Assembly: GCA_022826185.1 (NCBI GenBank) | Contig: JAJDVH010000063.1 | Location: 1-37,780 of the forward strand | Direction: 5' to 3' | DNA from: Alphaproteobacteria bacterium | GTDB taxonomy: Bacteria > Pseudomonadota > Alphaproteobacteria > Bin95 | DNA length: 37,780 nucleotides | Shown: in pieces, positions 159 through 36,666 of the stretch | How the letters are laid out: every line of letters starts with the position of its first letter | Numbering within the stretch: the stretch's first letter is position 1 | Notes under the pieces: generated by a model | Told to the model about the DNA's origin: nothing | Databases searched by the model: none | Seen by the model: the letters and a program-made list of their open reading frames with translations, nothing else | Made by a program: the position numbers and the translations under genes

Positions 159-494
159 CTCTCTACTTTCATTCTACACCATACCGCCAAATGTCAAGCC
201 CATACAGGAACAGAAAATGAAAATATCGGGCAATTTTCTCTTAACTTATTGAAGTCCGGGAGGAAACCGCAGGCGTTCTTCCCCCTCACCCCGAACCGCG
301 TTTTCGACCGGGGCCGAGGCGACGGCCCGACCTGCGGCAGGCCAGGTAACGCCGTTGCCCGGAATTGATGAAGAAAATCTCTAATGGGTTGTATTGGAGG
401 CATTATTTTTTGTTGACAGCTTGCGACGGAAGGTCGCAGACTTGGCTTGCGAAGACGGGAATGCGATGGGCGTTGCCGGCCAGGATCGAGGAGG

Positions 495-536
495 ATGAAC
501 GCCATGACACCACCGGTCCGGGACCGCCCCTCATAG
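495..536 (+). CDS. Possible 13-codon leader peptide
   Basis: A short ORF, MNAMTPPVRDRPS, lies in the long untranslated region ahead of the CBS gene. A strong Shine-Dalgarno sequence GAGGAGG (488-494) touches the first ATG (495) and sits 9 bases from the second in-frame ATG (504), so 504 is the more likely start. The stop codon TAG (534-536) lies inside the first of a series of overlapping hairpins, as expected of an attenuator leader. The peptide has no run of one amino acid but is rich in Pro and Arg. No family is recognised. It could equally be a chance ORF. Confidence 0.25.
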   Translation: MNAMTPPVRDRPS

Positions 537-586
537 GGGCCATCCGACAAGCGATACAAGATGGCCCGACCGCGATAGCGGCGGGC
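527..586 (+). promoter_or_regulatory. Overlapping, mutually exclusive hairpins in the CBS-gene leader
   Basis: Three stems share bases and cannot all form together. Stem A is CCCCT (527-531) with AGGGG (535-539). Stem B is GGGCCATC (537-544) with GATGGCCC (560-567), 8 perfect pairs. Stem C is GCCCG-A-CCGC (564-573) with GCGGCGGGC (578-586), with one bulged A and a GATA loop. A and B overlap at 537-539; B and C overlap at 564-567. A further small hairpin, TGCGAC (422-427) with GTCGCA (433-438), lies upstream. This matches attenuators or riboswitch-like leaders, but no known RNA class is recognised. A separate small RNA ending at 659 is an alternative. Confidence 0.4.
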
Positions 587-627
587 AACAGGTTTCAGAA
601 GAGACCCATCGAAACACCATCGATAAA

Positions 628-659
628 GCCCCGCCGTGCAACCCGAGTTCCGGCGGGGC
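628..659 (+). terminator. GC-rich terminator-like hairpin before the CBS gene
   Basis: GCCCCGCCG (628-636) pairs perfectly with CGGCGGGGC (651-659) across a 14-base loop. The downstream bases CATTTCATAT are only moderately T-rich. On the opposite strand the stem is followed by TTTAT. It could end a small RNA from 360-630, or act as the conditional terminator of the leader ahead of the gene at 688. The ribosome-binding region of that gene (about 673-680) lies just outside the stem. Confidence 0.45.
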
Positions 660-687
660 CATTTCATATCCATCCGGAGAATGGGAC

Positions 688-2579: not shown

Positions 2580-4148
2580 TTGACCGCCCGCGACCGCATA
2601 GCCATTCGCCGCGCCCTGATTTCCGTGTCCGACAAGGCGGGGCTGGAGGCGTTCGGGCGCTTTCTCGCGGAGCGCGGCGTCGAAATCCTCTCCACCGGCG
2701 GCACGGCCCGGCAACTGGGCGCGGCCGGCATCCCCGTCGTGGAGGTCTCGGAGCGGACGGGCTTCCCCGAAATGCTGGACGGGCGGGTCAAGACGCTGCA
2801 TCCGGCGCTGCATGGCGGGCTGCTGGGGCTGCGCGACGACCCGGCCCATGTGGAGGCCATGGACGCGCACGGCATCCGGCCCATCGACCTCTTGGTCGTC
2901 AATCTCTACCCGTTCGCGGAGACGGTGGCCGCCGGCGCGGACGAAGAGGCCTGCATCGAGAATATCGACATAGGCGGGCCGGCATTGATCCGGGCGGCCG
3001 CCAAGAACCACCGCTTCGTCGCGGTCGCCACGGCCCCGGAGCATCTGGACGACATCCGCGCCGAGATGGAGACCGACGGCGCGACGCCGCTCGCGCTGCG
3101 CCGCCGGCTCGCCGCCGAGGCTTACGGCCACACCGCCGCCTACGATGCGGCCGTCTCCACCTGGTTCGCCGGGCGGACGGGCGAGGCCTTCCCCCCGCGC
3201 GTGTCGCTGTCGGGGGTGCGCCGCCAGACCTTGCGCTACGGCGAGAACCCGCACCAGTCGGCGGCGTTCTACACCGACGGCAGCGCCCGGCCGGGCGTGG
3301 CGACCGCCGAGCAGGTGCAGGGCAGGGAGCTCAGCTACAACAACCTGAACGATGTGGATGCGGCCTTCGAGCTCGCGGGCGAGTTCGAGCGCCCGGCGGT
3401 CGTCATCGTCAAGCACGCCAATCCCTGCGGCGCGGCCGTTGCGGACGGTCTGTGCGAGGCATGGGACCGGGCGCTGGCCTGCGATCCCGTCAGCGCCTTC
3501 GGCGGCATTGTCGCCGTCAATCGCCCGCTCGATCGCGCGCTGGCGGAGCGGCTGGCCGGCCTCTTCCTCGAAGCCGTGATCGCGCCCGGTGCAGACGAAG
3601 AGGCCCGCGGGACGCTGGCCGGCAGGACGAATCTGAGACTGCTGCTGACAGGGGCGGTGCCGGACCCGCTCGCGCCGGCCATGACCTTCCGCTCGCTCGC
3701 CGGCGGGTTCCTGCTCCAGGGCCGGGACAACGGCCGCGCGGAGGCGTTCCGGACCGTTACGAAGCGCGCGCCGGGCGCAGCCGAGATGGCGGACCTGAGG
3801 GTGGCGTTCACCGTCTGCAAGCATGTGAAGTCCAACGCCATCGTCTATGTGAAGGACGGGGCGACGGTGGGCGTGGGCGCCGGGCAGATGAGCCGGGTGG
3901 ACAGCGCCCGCATCGCCGCGCGCAAGGCCGTGGACGCGGCCGGCGGCGGCGAACCGGCGACCGTCGGCTCGGTCGTGGCGTCGGACGCCTTCTTCCCCTT
4001 CGCCGACGGGCTGCTGGCCGCTGCGGAGGCGGGCGCCACCGCCGTCGTGCAGCCGGGCGGCTCGGTGCGCGACGAGGAGGTGATCCGGGCGGCCGACGAA
4101 CGGGGCCTTGCCATGGTATTCACCGGCATGCGCCATTTCCGCCACTGA
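2580..4148 (+). CDS. purH: Bifunctional AICAR transformylase / IMP cyclohydrolase
   Basis: PurH catalyses the last two steps of de novo IMP synthesis: formyl transfer from 10-formyl-tetrahydrofolate to AICAR, then ring closure. The 522 residues match the usual length. The N-terminal MGS-like IMP cyclohydrolase domain starts with ISVSDKAG and includes [14 protein letters not shown]. The transformylase domain carries RYGENPHQ (219-226) and KHANPCG (278-284), the Lys-His active-site region. The start is TTG at 2580: GGAGG (2566-2570) lies 9 bases upstream and translation begins [19 protein letters not shown], where PurH proteins normally begin. No other pur gene is present, and the downstream Mo-enzyme maturation genes start 15 bases after its stop. 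Confidence 0.97.
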
Positions 4149-4163
4149 CGGGACCCTTGCCCC

Positions 4164-5093
4164 ATGCAAACCGGAAGGGCCTTGCCCCGGTCGGTCGCCG
4201 AGACCGGCGAACTTCTCGAAGCCGGCGACTATGTGTCGGACACGGCGCTTGCGACGGCGGTGTTCCTGTCGCTGAAGCTCGGCAGGCCGCTCTTCCTCGA
4301 AGGCGAGGCGGGCACCGGCAAGACGGAGATCGCCAAGGTGCTGGCCGCGGTGCTCGGCCGCCGGCTCATCCGCCTGCAATGCTATGAGGGCCTGGATGTG
4401 GCATCCGCCGTCTATGAGTGGAACTACGCCCGGCAGATGATCGAGATCAGGCTGGCGGAAGCCTCCGGCGGGGCCGACCGCGAGAGCCTCGGGCGGGACC
4501 TGTTCGGGCCGGAGTTCCTGATCGAGCGGCCGCTGCTGCAAGCGCTCAGGGGCAGCGGTGACGGGCCGCCCGTGCTGCTGATCGACGAGCTCGACCGCAC
4601 GGACGAGCCCTTCGAGGCCTATCTGCTGGAGGTGCTCTCCGACTTCCAGGTGACGGTGCCGGAGATCGGCCCGATCCGGGCGGCGGTTCCGCCGGCCGTC
4701 GTCATTACCTCCAACCGCACGCGCGAAATCCACGACGCGCTCAAGCGGCGCTGCTTCTACCACTGGGTCGGCTATCCCGACGCCGCGCGCGAACTGGACA
4801 TCCTCGGCCGCAAGGCGCCGGCGGCCCCCGGGGCGCTGTCGCGCCAGGTCGTGGGCTATGTGCAGAAGGTGCGCGAGCTCGACCTGTTCAAGCTGCCCGG
4901 CATCGCCGAGACCATCGACTGGGTGCATGCGCTGATGCAGCTCGACGCCGTCGCGCTCGACCCGGCGATGGTGAACGACACGCTCGGCGTGCTGCTCAAA
5001 TACCAGGACGACATCGCGCGCCTGCAGGGCAGCGAGGCCGAGCGCATACTGAACGAGGTGCGCGCCGAACTCGCGGCGGCGGGGGCGGCATGA
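4164..5093 (+). CDS. coxD: MoxR-family AAA+ ATPase, CoxD-like
   Basis: A 309-residue MoxR-type AAA+ ATPase. Walker A is GEAGTGKT (47-54) and Walker B is VLLIDELD (137-144); a sensor-1 segment ITSNRTRE follows. In Oligotropha carboxidovorans, CoxD is an AAA+ chaperone needed to assemble the copper-sulfur-molybdenum site of carbon monoxide dehydrogenase. MoxR ATPases are generally paired with a VWA-domain protein, and here the next gene (CoxE-like) overlaps by 4 bases (ATGA). This and the XdhC-like and MoeA/MocA-like genes that follow place it in a Mo-hydroxylase maturation cassette. Whether the client is CO dehydrogenase or another xanthine-oxidase-family enzyme cannot be said, because no structural genes are in the window. 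Confidence 0.9.
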
Positions 5094-6295
5094 ATAGCGG
5101 GCGGCTGCCCGAGAACATCATGCATTTCGGCCGGGTGCTGCGCACCGCCGGCCTGCCTGTCGGCCCGGACCAGGTGCTGAAGGCCATCGAGGCGGTCTCG
5201 GCGGTGGATATGGCCGACCGGGCGCAATTCTACTGGGCGCTCCATGCCGCGCTGGTGAACCGGCGCGGCCAGCAGGAGCTGTTCGACCAGGCGTTCCACA
5301 TTTTCTGGCGCAATCCCCGCCTGCTGGAGCGGATGATGTCGCTGGTGATCCCGACCTCCAGCGTCGATACGGGGCAGGAAGAGTCCGAACCGCTGGCGCG
5401 GCGTCTGGCCGAAGCGCTGACGCCGCAGGAAACCGGACTTCGCGAGCGGGAGGGCGATGAGGAGGTCGAAATCCGCGCCGAGCTCACCTGGTCGGACCGG
5501 GAAGTGCTGCGCGCCATGGATTTCGAGACCATGTCGCTGGCCGAGCAGGAGGCCGCGAAACGCGCCATGGCGAAGATGCGCCTGCCGCTTCGGCCCGTGC
5601 CCGCGCGGCGCTTCCGGCTGCATCCGAGGGGGCGGCGGCCGGACCTGCGGGCGACGCTCAGGGGCGCGATGCGCACCGGCGGCGACTTCGTGGCGCTCCG
5701 CCGCAGGCGCCGCCTGCGCCGGCCGCCGCCGCTGGTGGTGATCTGCGACATTTCCGGGTCGATGGCCCGCTATTCCCGGATGCTGCTGCACTTCATGCAC
5801 GCCGTCACCAATGACCGCGACCGGGTGCATTGCTTCCTGTTCGGCACGCGGCTGACCAATGTCACCCGCCAGCTTCGCCAGAAGGATGTGGACACGGCGC
5901 TTGCGGGCGTGGCGGAGGCGGTCGAGGACTGGTCCGGCGGCACCCGTATCGGCGCCTCGCTCAGGAGCTTCAACCGGCTCTGGTCGCGCCGCGTGCTGGG
6001 GCAGGGCGCCGTGGTGCTGCTCATCAGCGACGGGCTCGACCGCGACTCCGGCGAGGGGCTGGCGGTCGAGGTCGAGCGCCTGCACAAGTCCTGCCGGCGG
6101 CTGGTCTGGCTCAACCCGCTGCTGCGCTACGACGCCTATGAGCCGAAGACGCGCGGCGCGGCGGCGCTGATGCCGCATGTTGACGAATTCCGCCCGGCGC
6201 ACAATCTGGATAGTCTTGCGGACCTGGCCGCCGCGCTCGGACGCGAGCCGGCCCGCCGGCAGGAGGGAGTAAGCGAATGGCTGATGCGGCTGTAG
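5090..6295 (+). CDS. coxE: VWA-domain protein, CoxE-like
   Basis: A 401-residue protein with a C-terminal von Willebrand factor A domain. The MIDAS motif is DISGS (220-224), followed by the GGTRIG and LLISDGLD segments that complete the metal site. The N-terminal ~200 residues are helical and charged, ending in a strongly basic patch (RRRRRLRR, about 204-211). CoxE proteins act with the MoxR ATPase CoxD in maturation of Mo-hydroxylases. Start codon and upstream stop overlap by 4 bases with coxD, and its 3' end overlaps the next gene by 19 bases, so translational coupling is likely. No transmembrane segment is seen. The family assignment is firm; the specific client enzyme is not known. Confidence 0.9.
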   Translation: MNSGRLPENIMHFGRVLRTAGLPVGPDQVLKAIEAVSAVDMADRAQFYWALHAALVNRRGQQELFDQAFHIFWRNPRLLERMMSLVIPTSSVDTGQEESEPLARRLAEALTPQETGLREREGDEEVEIRAELTWSDREVLRAMDFETMSLAEQEAAKRAMAKMRLPLRPVPARRFRLHPRGRRPDLRATLRGAMRTGGDFVALRRRRRLRRPPPLVVICDISGSMARYSRMLLHFMHAVTNDRDRVHCFLFGTRLTNVTRQLRQKDVDTALAGVAEAVEDWSGGTRIGASLRSFNRLWSRRVLGQGAVVLLISDGLDRDSGEGLAVEVERLHKSCRRLVWLNPLLRYDAYEPKTRGAAALMPHVDEFRPAHNLDSLADLAAALGREPARRQEGVSEWLMRL

Positions 6296-6612
6296 GCGAA
6301 GCGGATGCGATCCTGGACCGGGCGGCGGCATGGGCGGCGGCCGGCAGGGGCGTCGCGCTCGCCACGGTGGTCAAGACCTGGGGCTCGTCGCCGCGCGCGG
6401 TCGGCAGCCAGCTCGTCGTGGACGATGCGGGCGCCTTCGAGGGCTCGGTCTCGGGCGGCTGCATCGAGGGCGCGGTCGTGATGGAGGCCCGCCGGACCAT
6501 CGAGGACGGCGAGCCGCGCCTGCTCGATTTCGGCGTGAGCGACGAGGAGGCCTGGGAAGTCGGGCTTGCCTGCGGCGGCTCCATCGAGGTGTTTGTCGAG
6601 AAGCTGGCATGA
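6277..6612 (+). CDS. XdhC/CoxI-domain protein (N-terminal half of XdhC/CoxF)
   Basis: A 111-residue protein consisting of a single XdhC_CoxI domain, with the family segments VVKTWGSSPR and SGGCIEGAV and a Cys-Gly motif (LACGGSIEVF). In xanthine dehydrogenase maturation, XdhC binds the molybdenum cofactor, promotes its sulfuration and hands it to the apoenzyme; CoxF and CoxI do the equivalent for CO dehydrogenase. In many species this domain and the Rossmann domain form one chain, but here they are two genes overlapping by ATGA at 6609-6612. No frameshift is needed to explain this: both halves have proper starts and stops. The 5' end overlaps coxE by 19 bases. Confidence 0.88.
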   Translation: MADAAVGEADAILDRAAAWAAAGRGVALATVVKTWGSSPRAVGSQLVVDDAGAFEGSVSGGCIEGAVVMEARRTIEDGEPRLLDFGVSDEEAWEVGLACGGSIEVFVEKLA

Positions 6613-7286
6613 AGGCGGAAACGCTCGCCCGCCTGCGCGCCGCCCGCGGCGAACGGCGGCCTGTGGCCCGCGTCGCGGCGCTCGACGGCAGCGTGGATGC
6701 GGTCGTGGAGGACGGCGAGGGACCGCTGCCGGAGCCGGTTCTGGAAGTCGCGCGCGCCGCGTTGAAGCAGAACCGCAGCCATGATTTCGAACATGAAGGC
6801 GGGCGCTGGTTCGTGCAGGTCTTCAACCCGCCGCTCCGGCTGATCGTCGTGGGCGCGGTGCATATCTCGCAGCCGCTGATCGGAATGGCCGCCAATCTCG
6901 GCTACGACGTCACGCTGGTCGATCCGCGCGGTGCGTTCGCGACGGCGGCGCGGTTTCCCGATGTCGCGATCTGCGACGAGTGGCCCGACGATGCGCTGGA
7001 GGCGCTCGGCGTGGACGGGCGCACGGCCGTGGTGACCTTGACCCACGATCCCAAGCTGGACGACCCGGCCCTGCATGTGGCGCTCCGCTCCGAGGCGTTC
7101 TATGTGGGCGCGCTCGGCAGCCGGCGCACGCATGCCAAACGGGTCGAGCGGCTGGTCGAGGCCGGGTTCGACGAGGCCGCCATCGGGCGCATCCGCGCGC
7201 CCATCGGCCTCGATCTGGGCGGGCGGGCGCCGGCCGAGATCGCGCTCGCCATTGCCGCCCAGATGACGGAGGCGCTCTACCGATGA
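6609..7286 (+). CDS. XdhC Rossmann-domain protein (C-terminal half of XdhC/CoxF)
   Basis: A 225-residue protein matching the C-terminal XdhC_C Rossmann domain. The nucleotide-binding loop is around IVVGAVHISQPL, followed by VDPRGAFA and the conserved VTLTHDPKLDDPAL and YVGALGSRRTHAKR segments. The protein should work with the preceding 111-residue partner in inserting or sulfurating the molybdenum cofactor. The start chosen is the ATG at 6609 inside the ATGA overlap. Longer readings in this frame run out of frame through the preceding gene and have no family match. Its stop overlaps the next start by ATGA (7283-7286). Confidence 0.9.
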   Translation: MKAETLARLRAARGERRPVARVAALDGSVDAVVEDGEGPLPEPVLEVARAALKQNRSHDFEHEGGRWFVQVFNPPLRLIVVGAVHISQPLIGMAANLGYDVTLVDPRGAFATAARFPDVAICDEWPDDALEALGVDGRTAVVTLTHDPKLDDPALHVALRSEAFYVGALGSRRTHAKRVERLVEAGFDEAAIGRIRAPIGLDLGGRAPAEIALAIAAQMTEALYR

Positions 7287-8878
7287 AGTTCGGGCCGATC
7301 CCGGTCGAGGATGCCGAAGGGGCGTTGCTGGCCCACTCGATCCGGGTGGAGCGGGCGGTGTTCCGCAAGGGGCGGGTCCTTTCGGCAGCGGATCTGGCTG
7401 CGCTTGCCGAGGCGGGCGTGGAGCGCGTGACGGCCGCGCGGTTCGAGCCGGGCGACATGGCGGAGGACCGCGCGGCTGCGGCCGTCGCCGCGACCGTCGC
7501 CGGGGACGGGCTGGAGGTCGCCGCACCCTTCACCGGGCGAGTCAACCTGTTCGCCGAAGCGCGCGGCGTGCTGACGGTGGATGCGGCGCGGGTGGACCGG
7601 CTGAACCTTCTCGACGAGAGCGTGACCCTGGCGACGCTGCCGCCCTACAGCCTTGTCGAGCGGCGCCAGATGGTTGCGACGGTCAAGATCATACCCTTTG
7701 CCGCGCCGGGCGAGGTCGTGGAGCAGGTCGAGGGTCCGCTGATGGCCGTGCATCCGCTCGCGCCGAAGCGGGTGGCGCTCATCCAGACCGAATTGCCGAG
7801 CGTCAAGCCGAGCGTGCTCGACAAGACGGTGGAGATTACCCGCCGGCGCGTGGAGGCGCTGGAGGGAGAGCTGATCGGCGAACGGCGCTCCGCCCACGAG
7901 GAAACGGCGCTCTCCGGGGCGATCGGCGAGAGCCTGCGGGAATGCCCGGACATCCTGCTGATTGCCGGCGCGTCAGCCATCGTGGACCGGCGCGACGTGC
8001 TTCCGGCCGCCATCGAGGCGGCGGGCGGGGAGATCGAGCATTTCGGGATGCCGGTCGATCCCGGCAACCTGATACTTCTCGGGCGGATCGGGGCAGTGCC
8101 CGTCATCGGCCTGCCGGGCTGCGCCCGCTCGCCCAAACCGAACGGCTTCGACTGGGTGCTCCAGCGCCTCGCAGCGGGGCTGGAGGTCGGGCGGCGCGAG
8201 ATCATGTCGATGGGCGTCGGCGGCCTTCTGGTGGACATTCCGACCCGGCCCCAGCCAAGGACGCGGAGCCGGCCTGCCGCGGAGCCGCCCCGCCTGCCGC
8301 GCATTGCAGCCCTGGTGCTGGCCGCCGGGCAGTCCCGGCGCATGGGGTCCGCAAACAAGCTTCTGGCGGAGGTGGACGGCGCCGCCATGCTCCAACGCGC
8401 GCTGGAGGCCGCGCGCGCCTCCCAGGCGGCCTCCGTGCTGGTGGTCACCGGGCACGAGCGCAAACGCATCGAGGCGGCGGTCGATGCCCCGACGGTTCAC
8501 AATCCCGACTATGCGGACGGGCTCTCGACCTCGCTCGCCGCAGGCATCGCGGCGCTGCCGGAGGATGTTGACGGAGCGGTGGTGCTTCTGGCCGACATGC
8601 CGTTCGTCTCGGCTACGCATATCGACCGGCTGGTTGCGGCCTTCAACCCGCTGGAGGGGCGGTCGATCTGCGTGCCGACCTTCAACGGCAAGCGCGGCAA
8701 CCCCGTGCTCTGGGGCCGGGAGCTGTTCGCGGACATGCGCGGCATCTCGGGCGATGTCGGCGCCAAGCACCTGATCGGGGCGAACGGCGACCTGCTGGTC
8801 GAGGTGCCGATGCCGGATGCCGGCGTGCTGCGCGATGTCGACACCCCGGCCTCGCTCGCGGACGCGCGTTCCGGTTAG
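7283..8878 (+). CDS. MoeA-like / MocA-like fusion: molybdopterin-binding and cytidylyltransferase
   Basis: A 531-residue two-domain protein. Residues 1-~330 form a MoeA/MogA-like molybdopterin-binding region (SIRVERAVFRKGRVL near the start; the MPT-binding LLIAGASAIVDRRDV and GNLILLGRIG segments). From about 345 comes a MobA/MocA-type nucleotidyltransferase, with the signature LVLAAGQSRRMGSANKL and LLADMPFVS. MocA makes the molybdopterin cytosine dinucleotide form of the cofactor used by CO dehydrogenase and other bacterial hydroxylases, which fits the upstream coxDE/xdhC genes. The two-domain architecture occurs elsewhere as a molybdopterin-binding/glycosyltransferase-family-2 protein. The start is the ATG in the ATGA overlap with the preceding gene. 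A 29-bp inverted repeat lies downstream. Confidence 0.88.
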   Translation: MKFGPIPVEDAEGALLAHSIRVERAVFRKGRVLSAADLAALAEAGVERVTAARFEPGDMAEDRAAAAVAATVAGDGLEVAAPFTGRVNLFAEARGVLTVDAARVDRLNLLDESVTLATLPPYSLVERRQMVATVKIIPFAAPGEVVEQVEGPLMAVHPLAPKRVALIQTELPSVKPSVLDKTVEITRRRVEALEGELIGERRSAHEETALSGAIGESLRECPDILLIAGASAIVDRRDVLPAAIEAAGGEIEHFGMPVDPGNLILLGRIGAVPVIGLPGCARSPKPNGFDWVLQRLAAGLEVGRREIMSMGVGGLLVDIPTRPQPRTRSRPAAEPPRLPRIAALVLAAGQSRRMGSANKLLAEVDGAAMLQRALEAARASQAASVLVVTGHERKRIEAAVDAPTVHNPDYADGLSTSLAAGIAALPEDVDGAVVLLADMPFVSATHIDRLVAAFNPLEGRSICVPTFNGKRGNPVLWGRELFADMRGISGDVGAKHLIGANGDLLVEVPMPDAGVLRDVDTPASLADARSG

Positions 8879-8955: not shown

Positions 8956-9050
8956 CCGTCATGCCCGGACTTGTTCCGGGCATCTCCCTCAACCGTTTCC
9001 GTCCGGCCAAGCGGCCGCATGGATGCCCGGAACAAGTCCGGGCATGACGG
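8956..9050. repeat. Perfect 29-bp inverted repeat, likely REP-like or terminator element
   Basis: Bases 8956-8984 are the exact reverse complement of 9022-9050 (29 of 29), separated by 37 bases. Each arm is itself nearly palindromic: ATGCCCGGA, then a short centre, then TCCGGGCAT. The core ATGCCCGGACTTGTTCCGGG is of a kind found as dispersed intergenic repeats in many alphaproteobacterial genomes. It lies between the 3' end of the Mo-cofactor cassette and the 3' end of a small minus-strand gene, where it could terminate transcription in both directions. The 207-base gap (8879-9086) contains nothing else I can identify. Confidence 0.85.
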
Positions 9051-33433: not shown

Positions 33434-34780
33434 ATGGCAAGTCCGGATTTCTCGGTCCTGCCTTCCGTGGACCGCCTGCTTGAGGACCCCGCCCTGGCCG
33501 CGGCGGCCGCGGAATACGGGCGGGCGGAAGCGCTGGCGGGCGCGCGGCAGGCGCTCGCGGATGCGCGGCGGACGCTCGGGGCCGGCGGCGCGCTCGACCC
33601 TTCATCGCTCGGCCCGGCGGCGGCGGCGCATATTGCGGCGCGGGGGCGGCCGTCGCTCCGGCGGGTGTTCAACCTGACCGGCGTGGTGCTGCACACAAAC
33701 CTTGGCAGGGCGCCGCTCCCGCAGGAGGCGATTGCCGCGGTCGCGGAGGCCGCCGGCAATTGCAATCTCGAATACGACCTGGAGACGGGCCGGCGGGGAG
33801 ACCGGGACTCCCATGTCGAGGCGCTGCTGACCGAACTCACCGGCGCGGAAGCGGCGCTGGCGGTCAACAACAATGCCGCTGCGGTCCTGCTGGTGCTGAA
33901 CAGCCTTTCCGCGGGGCGCGACGCGCTGGTTTCGCGCGGAGAGCTGGTCGAGATCGGCGGCTCCTTCCGCATGCCGGAGATCATGGCCCGCGCCGGCGCC
34001 CGCATGGTCGAGGTCGGCACGACCAACCGCACGCATGCGAGCGATTTCGAGGCTGCCATCGGTCCGGACACCGGCTGCGTGATGAAGGTGCACACCTCCA
34101 ACTATGAGGTCGTCGGCTTCACGGCGTCGGTGCCGGACGACCGCCTGGCCCGTATCGCGGAAGCGGCGGGCGCGCCCTATGCGGTCGATCTGGGCGCGGG
34201 CCAGCTTGTCGATCTCGCGCGCTACGGGCTGCCGCAGGAGCCGATGCCGGGCCAGGCGCTCGCCGCCGGGGCCGGGCTCGTCACCTTCAGCGGCGACAAG
34301 CTGCTGGGCGGCCCGCAGGCCGGTATCGTCGTCGGCCGCGCAGACCTTGTCGCCCTGCTCAAGCGGAACCCGATGCGCCGGGCCATGCGGCTCGGCAAGC
34401 TCTCCCTCGCGGCGCTGGAAGCGGTGCTGCGGCTCTACCGGGACCCGGACCGGCTGGCCGAGCGCCTGCCTGCGCTCCGTGCACTGACCCGCTCCGTCGA
34501 GGAGATCGAGGCCCAGGCGCACCGGCTCGCGCCGGCGATGGAGGGCGCGGAGGTCGTGACCGTCGCGAGCCGGATCGGCTCCGGGTCGCTGCCGGTGGAG
34601 CGCCTCGAAAGCCGGGCGCTGGCGCTGTCCGCGCCCGGCGGCAAGGCGCTGGAGGCGCGCGCGGCGGCCTTCCGCCGGCTGCCCGTCCCGGTCATCGGGC
34701 GCATCGCCGAAGGGCGGCTGCTCTTCGACCTGCGCACGCTTGACGACGAAGACGCATTCCTGTCCCAACTGGCCCCATGA
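33434..34780 (+). CDS. selA: L-seryl-tRNA(Sec) selenium transferase
   Basis: SelA is the PLP enzyme that converts Ser-tRNA(Sec) to Sec-tRNA(Sec) with selenophosphate. The 448 residues are close to the normal length. Family motifs include [20 protein letters not shown] (78-97), the Gly-rich [12 protein letters not shown], and [13 protein letters not shown] with the PLP Lys289. It overlaps selB by ATGA (34777-34780), so SelA and SelB are made together. The partner genes selD (selenophosphate synthetase) and selC (tRNA-Sec) are not in the window, and no selenoprotein gene with an in-frame UGA was recognised here. Confidence 0.96.
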
Positions 34781-36666
34781 TCGTCGCGACGGCCGGGCAT
34801 ATCGACCACGGCAAGACCTCGCTGGTGAAGGCGCTGACCGGCACCGACGCCGACCGGCTGCCGGAGGAAAAGGCGCGGGGGCTCACCATCGACCTGGGCT
34901 TCGCCTACTGGCAGGCCGGCCCCGGCCAGACCGTCGGCTTCATCGACGTGCCGGGGCATGAGCGGTTCATAAAGAACATGCTGGCCGGCGTCACCGGCAT
35001 CGACGCGGCGCTGCTGATCGTGGCCGCCGACGACGGGCCGATGCCGCAGACCCGCGAGCATCTGGCGATCCTCGACCTGCTGGGCGTGCAGCGCGGCATT
35101 ATCGCCGTGACCAAGGCCGACCGCGCCGAGCCGGAGCGCGTGCGGGCGGTTGCCGAAGAGGCGCAGGCGCTGGCTGCGGATACCGGGCTCGCCGGGGCGC
35201 CGGTGCTCCCCGTCTCCGCGATAACGGGCGCGGGCGTGCCGGAATTGCAGCGCCTGCTGCAGCGGCTTGCGGGCGCGGTCGGGCGGCGGCGGGCGTCGGG
35301 GCGGTTCCGGCTGGCGGTGGACCGCAGCTTCACCCTGCGCGGCGCGGGCCTCGTGGTCACCGGCACGGCCTTTTCGGGCGCGGTCAAGGTCGGCGACCGG
35401 CTGCTGGTCTCGCCCGGCGGGGTCGAGGCGCGGGTGCGCGCCATCCACGCCGAGAACGTCGAGGCCCATGCCGCCCAGGCCGGGCAGCGGGTGGCGCTCA
35501 ACCTCGCCGGGTCGGGCCTGCGCCGCCACGCCGTCTCGCGCGGCGACTGGCTGCTGGCGCCCGAGGCCCACGGGCCGACGCGCCGGATTGACATAAGGCT
35601 GAGGGTGCTCGGCAGCGAGGCGCGGCCGTTGCGGGACCGCACGCCCGTGCATGTCCATCTGGGCGCGGCGGATGTGACCGGTAGGGTCGCGGTGCTGGAC
35701 GGCCCGTCCATCGCGCCGGGCGCGGCCGGCTGGGCGCAATTGCTGCTGGACCGCCAGATCGGCGCGCTTGCCGGCGATGGCGTCGTGCTGCGCGACCAGT
35801 CGGCCATGCGCACCATGGCCGGCGGCCGCGTCGCCGATCCGTTTCCCCCGGCGCGCGGCCGGGCGCGGCCGGAGCGGCTGGCGGAACTTGTCGTGCGCGC
35901 CGGGGACGACCCGTTCGGCGGGCTGGTGGAGGCGGCGGCCTTCGGCTTCGATTTCCCCCGCTTCGCGCTCGCGCACAATCTGAACGACGCGGAACAGGCG
36001 GCGCTGAGGCGGCGGCAGGGCGTGGTGTTCGCGGGTCCGGTCGCCGTCGATGCCGGGCGCTGGCAGGCGCTCTCGGATGCCTTCGAGCGCGAGGTGGACG
36101 CCTGGACGGCGGCGCATCCCGACAGCCAGGGACTCGGTCCCGTGGCGCTCCGCCGGCGGCTCGACCCGGTGCCGCCGCGCGATATCGCGGAGGCGGCGCT
36201 GGCGGCGCTCGCCTCCACCGGCAAGCTCGCGCGGTCCGGCGGTTTCGTCCACCGGCCGGGCCACCGCGCGGCGCTCGCCCCGGAGGAGGAGGCGCTCTGG
36301 AAGCGCATCGAGCCGCTGGTAGTCGAGGGAGGCCTGCGCCCGCCGCGCGTCCGCGAACTGGCCGACATGCTCAAGGTCGATCACGCGAGGGTGGAGCAGG
36401 TGTTGCGGCAGGCCGGGCGCTTCGGCCTGGTGCGAAGGGTGGCGGACAATCGCTGGTTCCCGCCGGATGCGCTCAGGGGGCTGGCGGACATTGCCGAAAC
36501 CCTGGCGGCTGAGAGCGCCGACGGGCGTTTCACGGCGGCGGCCTACAAGGACCGCTCCGGCATCGGGCGCAATGTCACCATCGAGTTGCTGGAGTTTTTC
36601 GACAAGGAAGGTTTCACCCGGCGCGAGGGCGACGCCCGCCGGATCGTCCGGGAGTGGCGGGGATAA
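34777..36666 (+). CDS. selB: Selenocysteine-specific elongation factor
   Basis: SelB is the GTPase that delivers Sec-tRNA(Sec) to UGA codons marked by a SECIS hairpin. The 629-residue product has G1 GHIDHGKT (7-14), G3 DVPGHE and G4 TKAD, then the EF-Tu-like beta-barrel domains. The C-terminal ~250 residues form the winged-helix repeats that bind SECIS RNA (segments around [22 protein letters not shown] and [22 protein letters not shown]). All domains are intact. It is translationally coupled to selA. The enolase-superfamily gene begins 29 bases downstream but has no obvious functional link. Confidence 0.96.

Follow-up and report, generated by a model that had tools for sequence, protein, structure and literature searches.

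The window, by which we mean the whole 37,780-nucleotide stretch of alphaproteobacterial DNA that was analysed, starts at a contig edge, and the locus considered here, which is read from the forward strand, consists of two genes and the region ahead of them. The first gene (688-1119) codes for a 143-residue protein with two CBS domains (Pfam CBS, E-value 3e-24, two stretches) and has a Shine-Dalgarno sequence, GGAG, at 676-679; it is followed by a gene for a DAO-type FAD oxidoreductase (1179-2492; Pfam DAO, E-value 6.2e-44) that is likely the second gene of the same unit, and that also lies directly 3′ of the CBS gene in the related genomes G002, G004 and G007. Upstream of the CBS gene is a conserved block (407-666), set apart by its conservation as an orphan structured RNA together with its promoter region.

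Two genes past the CBS gene there is a PurH-type open reading frame (2580-4148) with AICARFT/IMPCHase and MGS-like domains, and at 4164-8878 there follow, in a row, genes for a MadB-related AAA ATPase, a CoxE-type VWA protein, and XdhC-type and MobA-like proteins, a grouping that suggests a cluster for the maturation of a molybdenum hydroxylase. A perfect 29-nt inverted repeat with 37 nt between its arms (8956-9050; core ATGCCCGG..CCGGGCAT) is probably a dispersed REP-like element, and similar palindromic pieces are present 5′ of the leader in G003. Farther to the right, 34777-36666 codes for SelB, the selenocysteine-specific elongation factor, from which it appears that the organism may make selenoproteins.

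Conservation and range of the leader

A search with positions 360-690 gives one match in the window's own genome and six more among other members of its genus, such that the block is present as a single copy in seven of the eight genomes of the genus, the window's own counted. The sole genome in which this search does not find it is G001, which contains no close CBS relative (best E-value 1.6e-13) and no oxidoreductase match at a cut-off of 1e-60. A covariance model built from the seven sequences is positive in 7 of 14 family genomes, all seven positives belonging to the window's genus; the six representatives of other genera are negative, and the order sample consists of these same 14 genomes. 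Across the class, where the best five or fewer candidates per genome were considered under strict filters that weak relatives could escape, the model is positive in 2 of 385 genomes, both among the three genus members included. No such block was seen when the sequence 5′ of the CBS relatives was inspected by eye in G008 (where it amounts to about 100 bases only), G009, G010, G012 and six genomes from outside the family.

DNA searches, of which the class-wide ones considered the best two or fewer candidates per genome and could also be escaped by weak relatives, gave matches beyond the genus that we judge to be due to chance. Those in G009, G283 and G379 lie inside open reading frames, the latter two coding presumably for an NADH-dehydrogenase subunit and a TonB-type receptor respectively, and that in G375 spans 23 bases only. 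A 32-base match in G055 (L008, 1501-1532), with 88% identity to 424-455, recurs in two DNA searches and lies 5′ of an open reading frame that we take to be hfq; it falls in the same E-value class as the other outside matches and is probably also fortuitous.

The conservation is sharply bounded, and in the genus alignment it sets in at TTTTTGTTGACA (407) and ends right after the TTTC tail of the last hairpin, T. Mean pairwise identity is 0.91 in the block and 0.40 in the 100 bases of flank at 300-399; it is 0.76 at 667-687 and 0.88 in the CBS gene (0.75 at its third codon positions), the figures 3′ of 666 excluding G006, whose contig stops there. Single-base insertions or deletions occur at two places inside the block in the alignment of all seven sequences, arguing against one long coding frame on either strand, and from these and the identity profile we infer that the block is strongly constrained, though not as protein. 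The sample behind these figures comprises seven closely related genomes with little sequence variation.

A CBS relative with 89-100% protein identity lies about 20 nt past the block in six of the seven genomes, and the spacing is near-constant in these six, in which the contig continues; in the seventh, G006 (75% complete, and with no oxidoreductase match at a cut-off of 1e-60), the contig ends. The gene upstream of the block varies, encoding a Usp domain in G007 and an amidase in G004, with the upstream frame in G005 and G006 terminating like that of G007. Because the upstream gene changes while the CBS gene stays, the block is associated with the latter, and because the gap of about 20 nt includes the Shine-Dalgarno sequence and has no space for another promoter, the CBS gene would be transcribed through the block. 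Judged by these comparisons this stretch of about 260 bases is a genuine RNA leader under strong conservation, known so far in one bacterial genus only; its link to CBS is established, and in our reading it serves the CBS(-oxidoreductase) unit as a structured 5′ leader.

The leader had been predicted to belong to no known RNA family, and Rfam indeed gives no match in the window at its curated scores, including no common small RNA ending at 659. The best relaxed match is to a trypanosomatid snoRNA (E-value 0.32; 19.2 bits, the cut-off being 50), and identity with a known riboswitch or a known small RNA was thus set aside, Rfam having no family for the leader. No paper on leaders of CBS-domain genes was found among the titles and abstract openings of the part of the literature covered.

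Candidate promoter and terminator signals

The block opens with TTTTTGTTGACA (407-418), a 12-nt run that is invariant in all seven genomes and consists of a T-tract and a perfect −35 hexamer, TTGACA (413-418), making it a candidate promoter. A promoter scan gave no full promoter, and there is no good −10 box at the usual distance from 413-418, the best by eye being CAGACT at 437-442. Between the −35 element and the candidate −10 region lies a dyad, TTGCGAC/GTCGCAG (421-439), which is paired in all seven genomes, with one A-U to G-U change in two of them, and which could act either in the promoter as an operator or in the RNA as a 5′ hairpin.

At the other end of the block, the strong GC hairpin predicted ahead of the CBS gene at 628-659 is confirmed as hairpin T, a 9-bp GC stem (628-636/651-659) that is invariant in the seven genomes and ends 28 nt before the CBS start at 688. 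Hairpin T and its tail, [A/G]TTTC, form a weak terminator-like element (628-665), with a U-tract score of 1.01-1.23 from the stem end and of 2.80-3.41 from the first T. Because the T-tract is poor T may not terminate, and termination there, though plausible, is at best partial; the halt of conservation just past the tail is as expected of a terminator. A search for a C-rich, G-poor Rho bubble gave no clear signal, C exceeding G mildly with the largest gap (0.36 to 0.23) at 600-677.

The mini-ORF

The original prediction placed a Shine-Dalgarno sequence and a 13-codon open reading frame at 495-536. The Shine-Dalgarno sequence (GGAGG, 490-494), the ATG at 495 and the stop codon (TAG, 534-536, inside stem A) are all found, but there is a second in-frame ATG at 504 that, judged from its position, is the likelier start: it lies 9 nt past GGAGG and opens a frame of 10 codons (504-536), M[T/K]PPV[R/E][D/G/V]RPS-stop, while ATG 495 abuts GGAGG directly. 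Conservation of the mini-ORF had been suggested as a check, and GGAGG, an ATG and the stop codon are retained, with the frame open, in all seven genus genomes, providing at the level of sequence the leader ORF of an attenuator. A mini-ORF with an ATG so spaced from GGAGG arises by chance in 496 of 20,000 shuffles (2.5%).

Substitutions in the mini-ORF are confined to codons 2, 6 and 7 and are mostly non-synonymous; the remaining codons, including those for the invariant residues Pro-Pro-Val and Arg-Pro-Ser, do not vary and contain no synonymous changes, so that selection is seen at the RNA or nucleotide level and not specifically on the peptide. The sequence CATCC at 541-545, invariant in all seven genomes, could form a helix with GGATG (493-497) at the Shine-Dalgarno sequence of the mini-ORF, and this pairing is a possible gate on the mini-ORF, its invariance leaving covariation uninformative.

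The proposed three-stem switch

The leader was further proposed to switch among three mutually exclusive stems, A, B and C. All three are present in the window, with stem A corresponding to 526-531/535-540 rather than 527-539, and stem B (537-544/560-567), which has eight perfect base pairs in the window, overlaps both A (537-540) and C (564-567) and so excludes both. Stem A, which contains the stop codon, is invariant in all seven genomes, and stem C (564-573/578-586, with one bulge) is paired in 100% of alignment cells with a single change, from G-C to G-U. Conservation fails for stem B: 76.8% of its cells are paired in the seven-sequence alignment, all eight pairs form in two of the seven genomes and five or six in the other five, and the last (outer) two pairs are broken in five genomes and the third-last pair in three, in each case uncompensated.

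Folding was computed at equilibrium from an assumed start at 448, with which a kinetic mechanism remains compatible, and three ribosome states were modelled, namely none (default), stalled (498-530 unpaired) and at the stop codon (519-549 unpaired). In the stalled state, with transcripts to 626, the probability of stem B ranges from 0.05 to 0.99 across the sequences; when stem A is blocked, B and C respond differently among the seven, B displacing C in some only. In full transcripts hairpin T has a probability of 1.0 in all seven sequences and all three states. The best candidate for an antiterminator of T, 578-585/630-637, involves the 3′ arm of stem C and is pairable in all seven sequences, yet it was rejected: together with stem B it has a probability of 0.0 in full transcripts in each of the three states, its energy being some 25-27 kcal/mol higher than that of the default fold. 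In transcripts to 645, where T is not yet closable, the 578-585/630-637 pairing reaches 0.57-0.98 in G007 in all three states; G005 attains 0.64, but only when the ribosome is stalled, and the other sequences stay at 0.15 or less. Two further helices were discarded: a closing helix in the window's own fold (559-565/658-664) is broken in five of the seven genomes, and a start-region helix (466-474/498-505) is perfect in five and lost in G002 and G006, which could instead form 465-470/498-503, two lineages only being involved.

With stem B unconserved, the responses of B and C inconsistent, and T forming in every full-length state, the switch as drawn does not hold, and a three-stem switch via stem B is, on these models, probably not the mechanism. 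The attenuator-like order of the parts (mini-ORF, hairpins, terminator-like hairpin, gene) is as predicted and is conserved, but no conserved antiterminator emerges from the folding; the leader may still act as an attenuator.

The 3′ hairpins

Stem C is followed by stem D (591-606), paired in 100% of cells with a U-G to C-G change in two of the seven genomes, and stem E (608-624), which includes the sole compensated pair (A-U, G-U, G-C). The folding of the leader (440-666) has a z-score of −3.77, with none of 200 shuffles as stable, and 1 of 90 random window segments reaches this z, that segment containing the 29-bp inverted repeat at 8956-9050. In the alignment the 3′ part comprising C, D, E and T (548-665) has a z-score of −7.83 against column shuffles (0 of 200), and of −7.09 (0 of 200) with hairpin T removed; the mini-ORF part with stems A and B is hardly above column shuffles (440-550, z −1.45, 18 of 200; 484-565, z −1.51, 15 of 200). 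The interval 495-666 contains two Watson-Crick helices of at least 8 bp, a number matched by 3 of 1000 dinucleotide shuffles, and three of at least 6 bp, matched by 114 of 1000. The row of four 3′ hairpins is thus well supported by the modelling. The invariant runs of the block mostly lie outside them, as at 452-464 and 467-484.

A test for covariation, suggested with the original prediction for stems A-C, is less informative. Every cell is paired in the 52 pairs of the default structure and there are five further pair types, but one pair of the 52 is compensated (in stem E, with both sides changed in one genome), which 138 of 500 shuffles equal. Covariation does not therefore serve as proof of structure; it is scant because the seven sequences are close, and the same low variation limits its weight against structure.

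Interpretation of the leader

We favour the interpretation, to which we assign a probability of about one half, that the leader acts in cis as a kind of attenuator whose terminator is weak and whose input is probably translation of the mini-ORF. RNA synthesis would start in or just past the TTGACA region, and the 10-codon mini-ORF would be followed in the transcript by hairpins A, C, D and E and finally by T, which has a short T-rich tail. A fraction of transcripts would stop at T and the remainder continue into the CBS gene, and ribosomes on the mini-ORF would open hairpin A and the adjoining anti-Shine-Dalgarno segment and thereby set the extent of onward transcription.

As the main alternative, the block could encode a small RNA of about 215 nt, made from its own promoter, ending at T and acting in trans, with a possible second function through the mini-ORF; the CBS gene would then be reached by read-through. 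The block has a −35-like element at one boundary and a terminator-like hairpin at the other, its identity exceeds that of the CBS gene, its four 3′ hairpins are clean, and its invariant runs (452-464, 467-484) lie largely off those hairpins, all of which is consistent with such a gene; however, the T-tract is weak, and the CBS gene adjoins in all six genomes in which the contig continues, at near-constant spacing and with the upstream gene varying, and we consider an independent small RNA gene less likely than the cis-acting leader. The poor T-tract would also suit a 5′ UTR that controls translation or stability without termination, in which the very stable hairpins protect the mRNA or position ribosomes and T, sitting just 5′ of the CBS Shine-Dalgarno sequence, is an insulator. 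Computed access to that Shine-Dalgarno sequence is, however, about equal with or without the leader (0.37-0.42, for the window sequence only), and such a UTR would have no need of the TTTC tail that is conserved outside the stem, so that we regard a non-terminating UTR as unlikely.

The original prediction also raised the sensing of a metabolite. A conserved structured leader that has no name, precedes a CBS gene and contains invariant unpaired stretches is what one might expect of a new riboswitch class with a metabolite ligand such as an adenine nucleotide. Its range of one genus only (7 of 14 family genomes and 2 of 385 class genomes, from the best five or fewer candidates per genome) makes this unlikely in itself, and with no alternative fold reaching T and the CBS Shine-Dalgarno sequence little changed we consider a riboswitch very improbable. 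We give almost no credence to chance hairpins in a GC-rich spacer or to an overlooked coding sequence: some such stems are expected, with a mean of 1.22 helices of at least 6 bp per shuffle, but the identity of 0.91 against 0.40 in the flank refutes chance, and the single-base insertions or deletions at two places argue against coding.

A more elaborate proposal, for which we would give rather long odds, is that of a lineage-born leader whose Pro-Pro mini-ORF reports the state of translation, such as the supply of proline or elongation factor P, and sets expression of the CBS-pair sensor and the oxidoreductase, acting via co-transcriptional kinetics or Rho and not an A/B/C switch, and freeing as a by-product a stable four-hairpin RNA that may act in trans.

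Pending a transcript or a signal the find is a modest one. An orphan leader that is more conserved than its gene and present in one genus only offers a case of regulatory RNA arising within a lineage, and since CBS-pair proteins are often without a known ligand or control, the attenuator-type leader would provide a concrete regulatory handle.

Comparison with known leaders

In Salmonella, mgtL (of mgtA) and mgtP (of mgtCBR) are leader ORFs with proline codons, and ribosome stalling sets transcription into the gene (PMC5021804). The leader described here is likewise structured and contains a short ORF that includes proline codons, a likeness that, being drawn here from sequence alone, is a lead; it differs in that no competing stem reaches the terminal hairpin, the genes are others, and there is no link to Mg2+. 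The Sinorhizobium meliloti leader peptide peTrpL shows that an attenuator peptide can act beyond its own operon (PMC7298713), and it too comes from an alphaproteobacterial leader with a mini-ORF, whereas here folding revealed no antiterminator, and the mini-ORF has no run of codons for a single amino acid related to the gene downstream. While our leader also differs from the SAM-II riboswitch leaders of S. meliloti metA and metZ, having no Rfam riboswitch match in the window and a single-genus range, in those leaders the terminator yields a discrete small RNA besides the read-through mRNA (PMC9373788).
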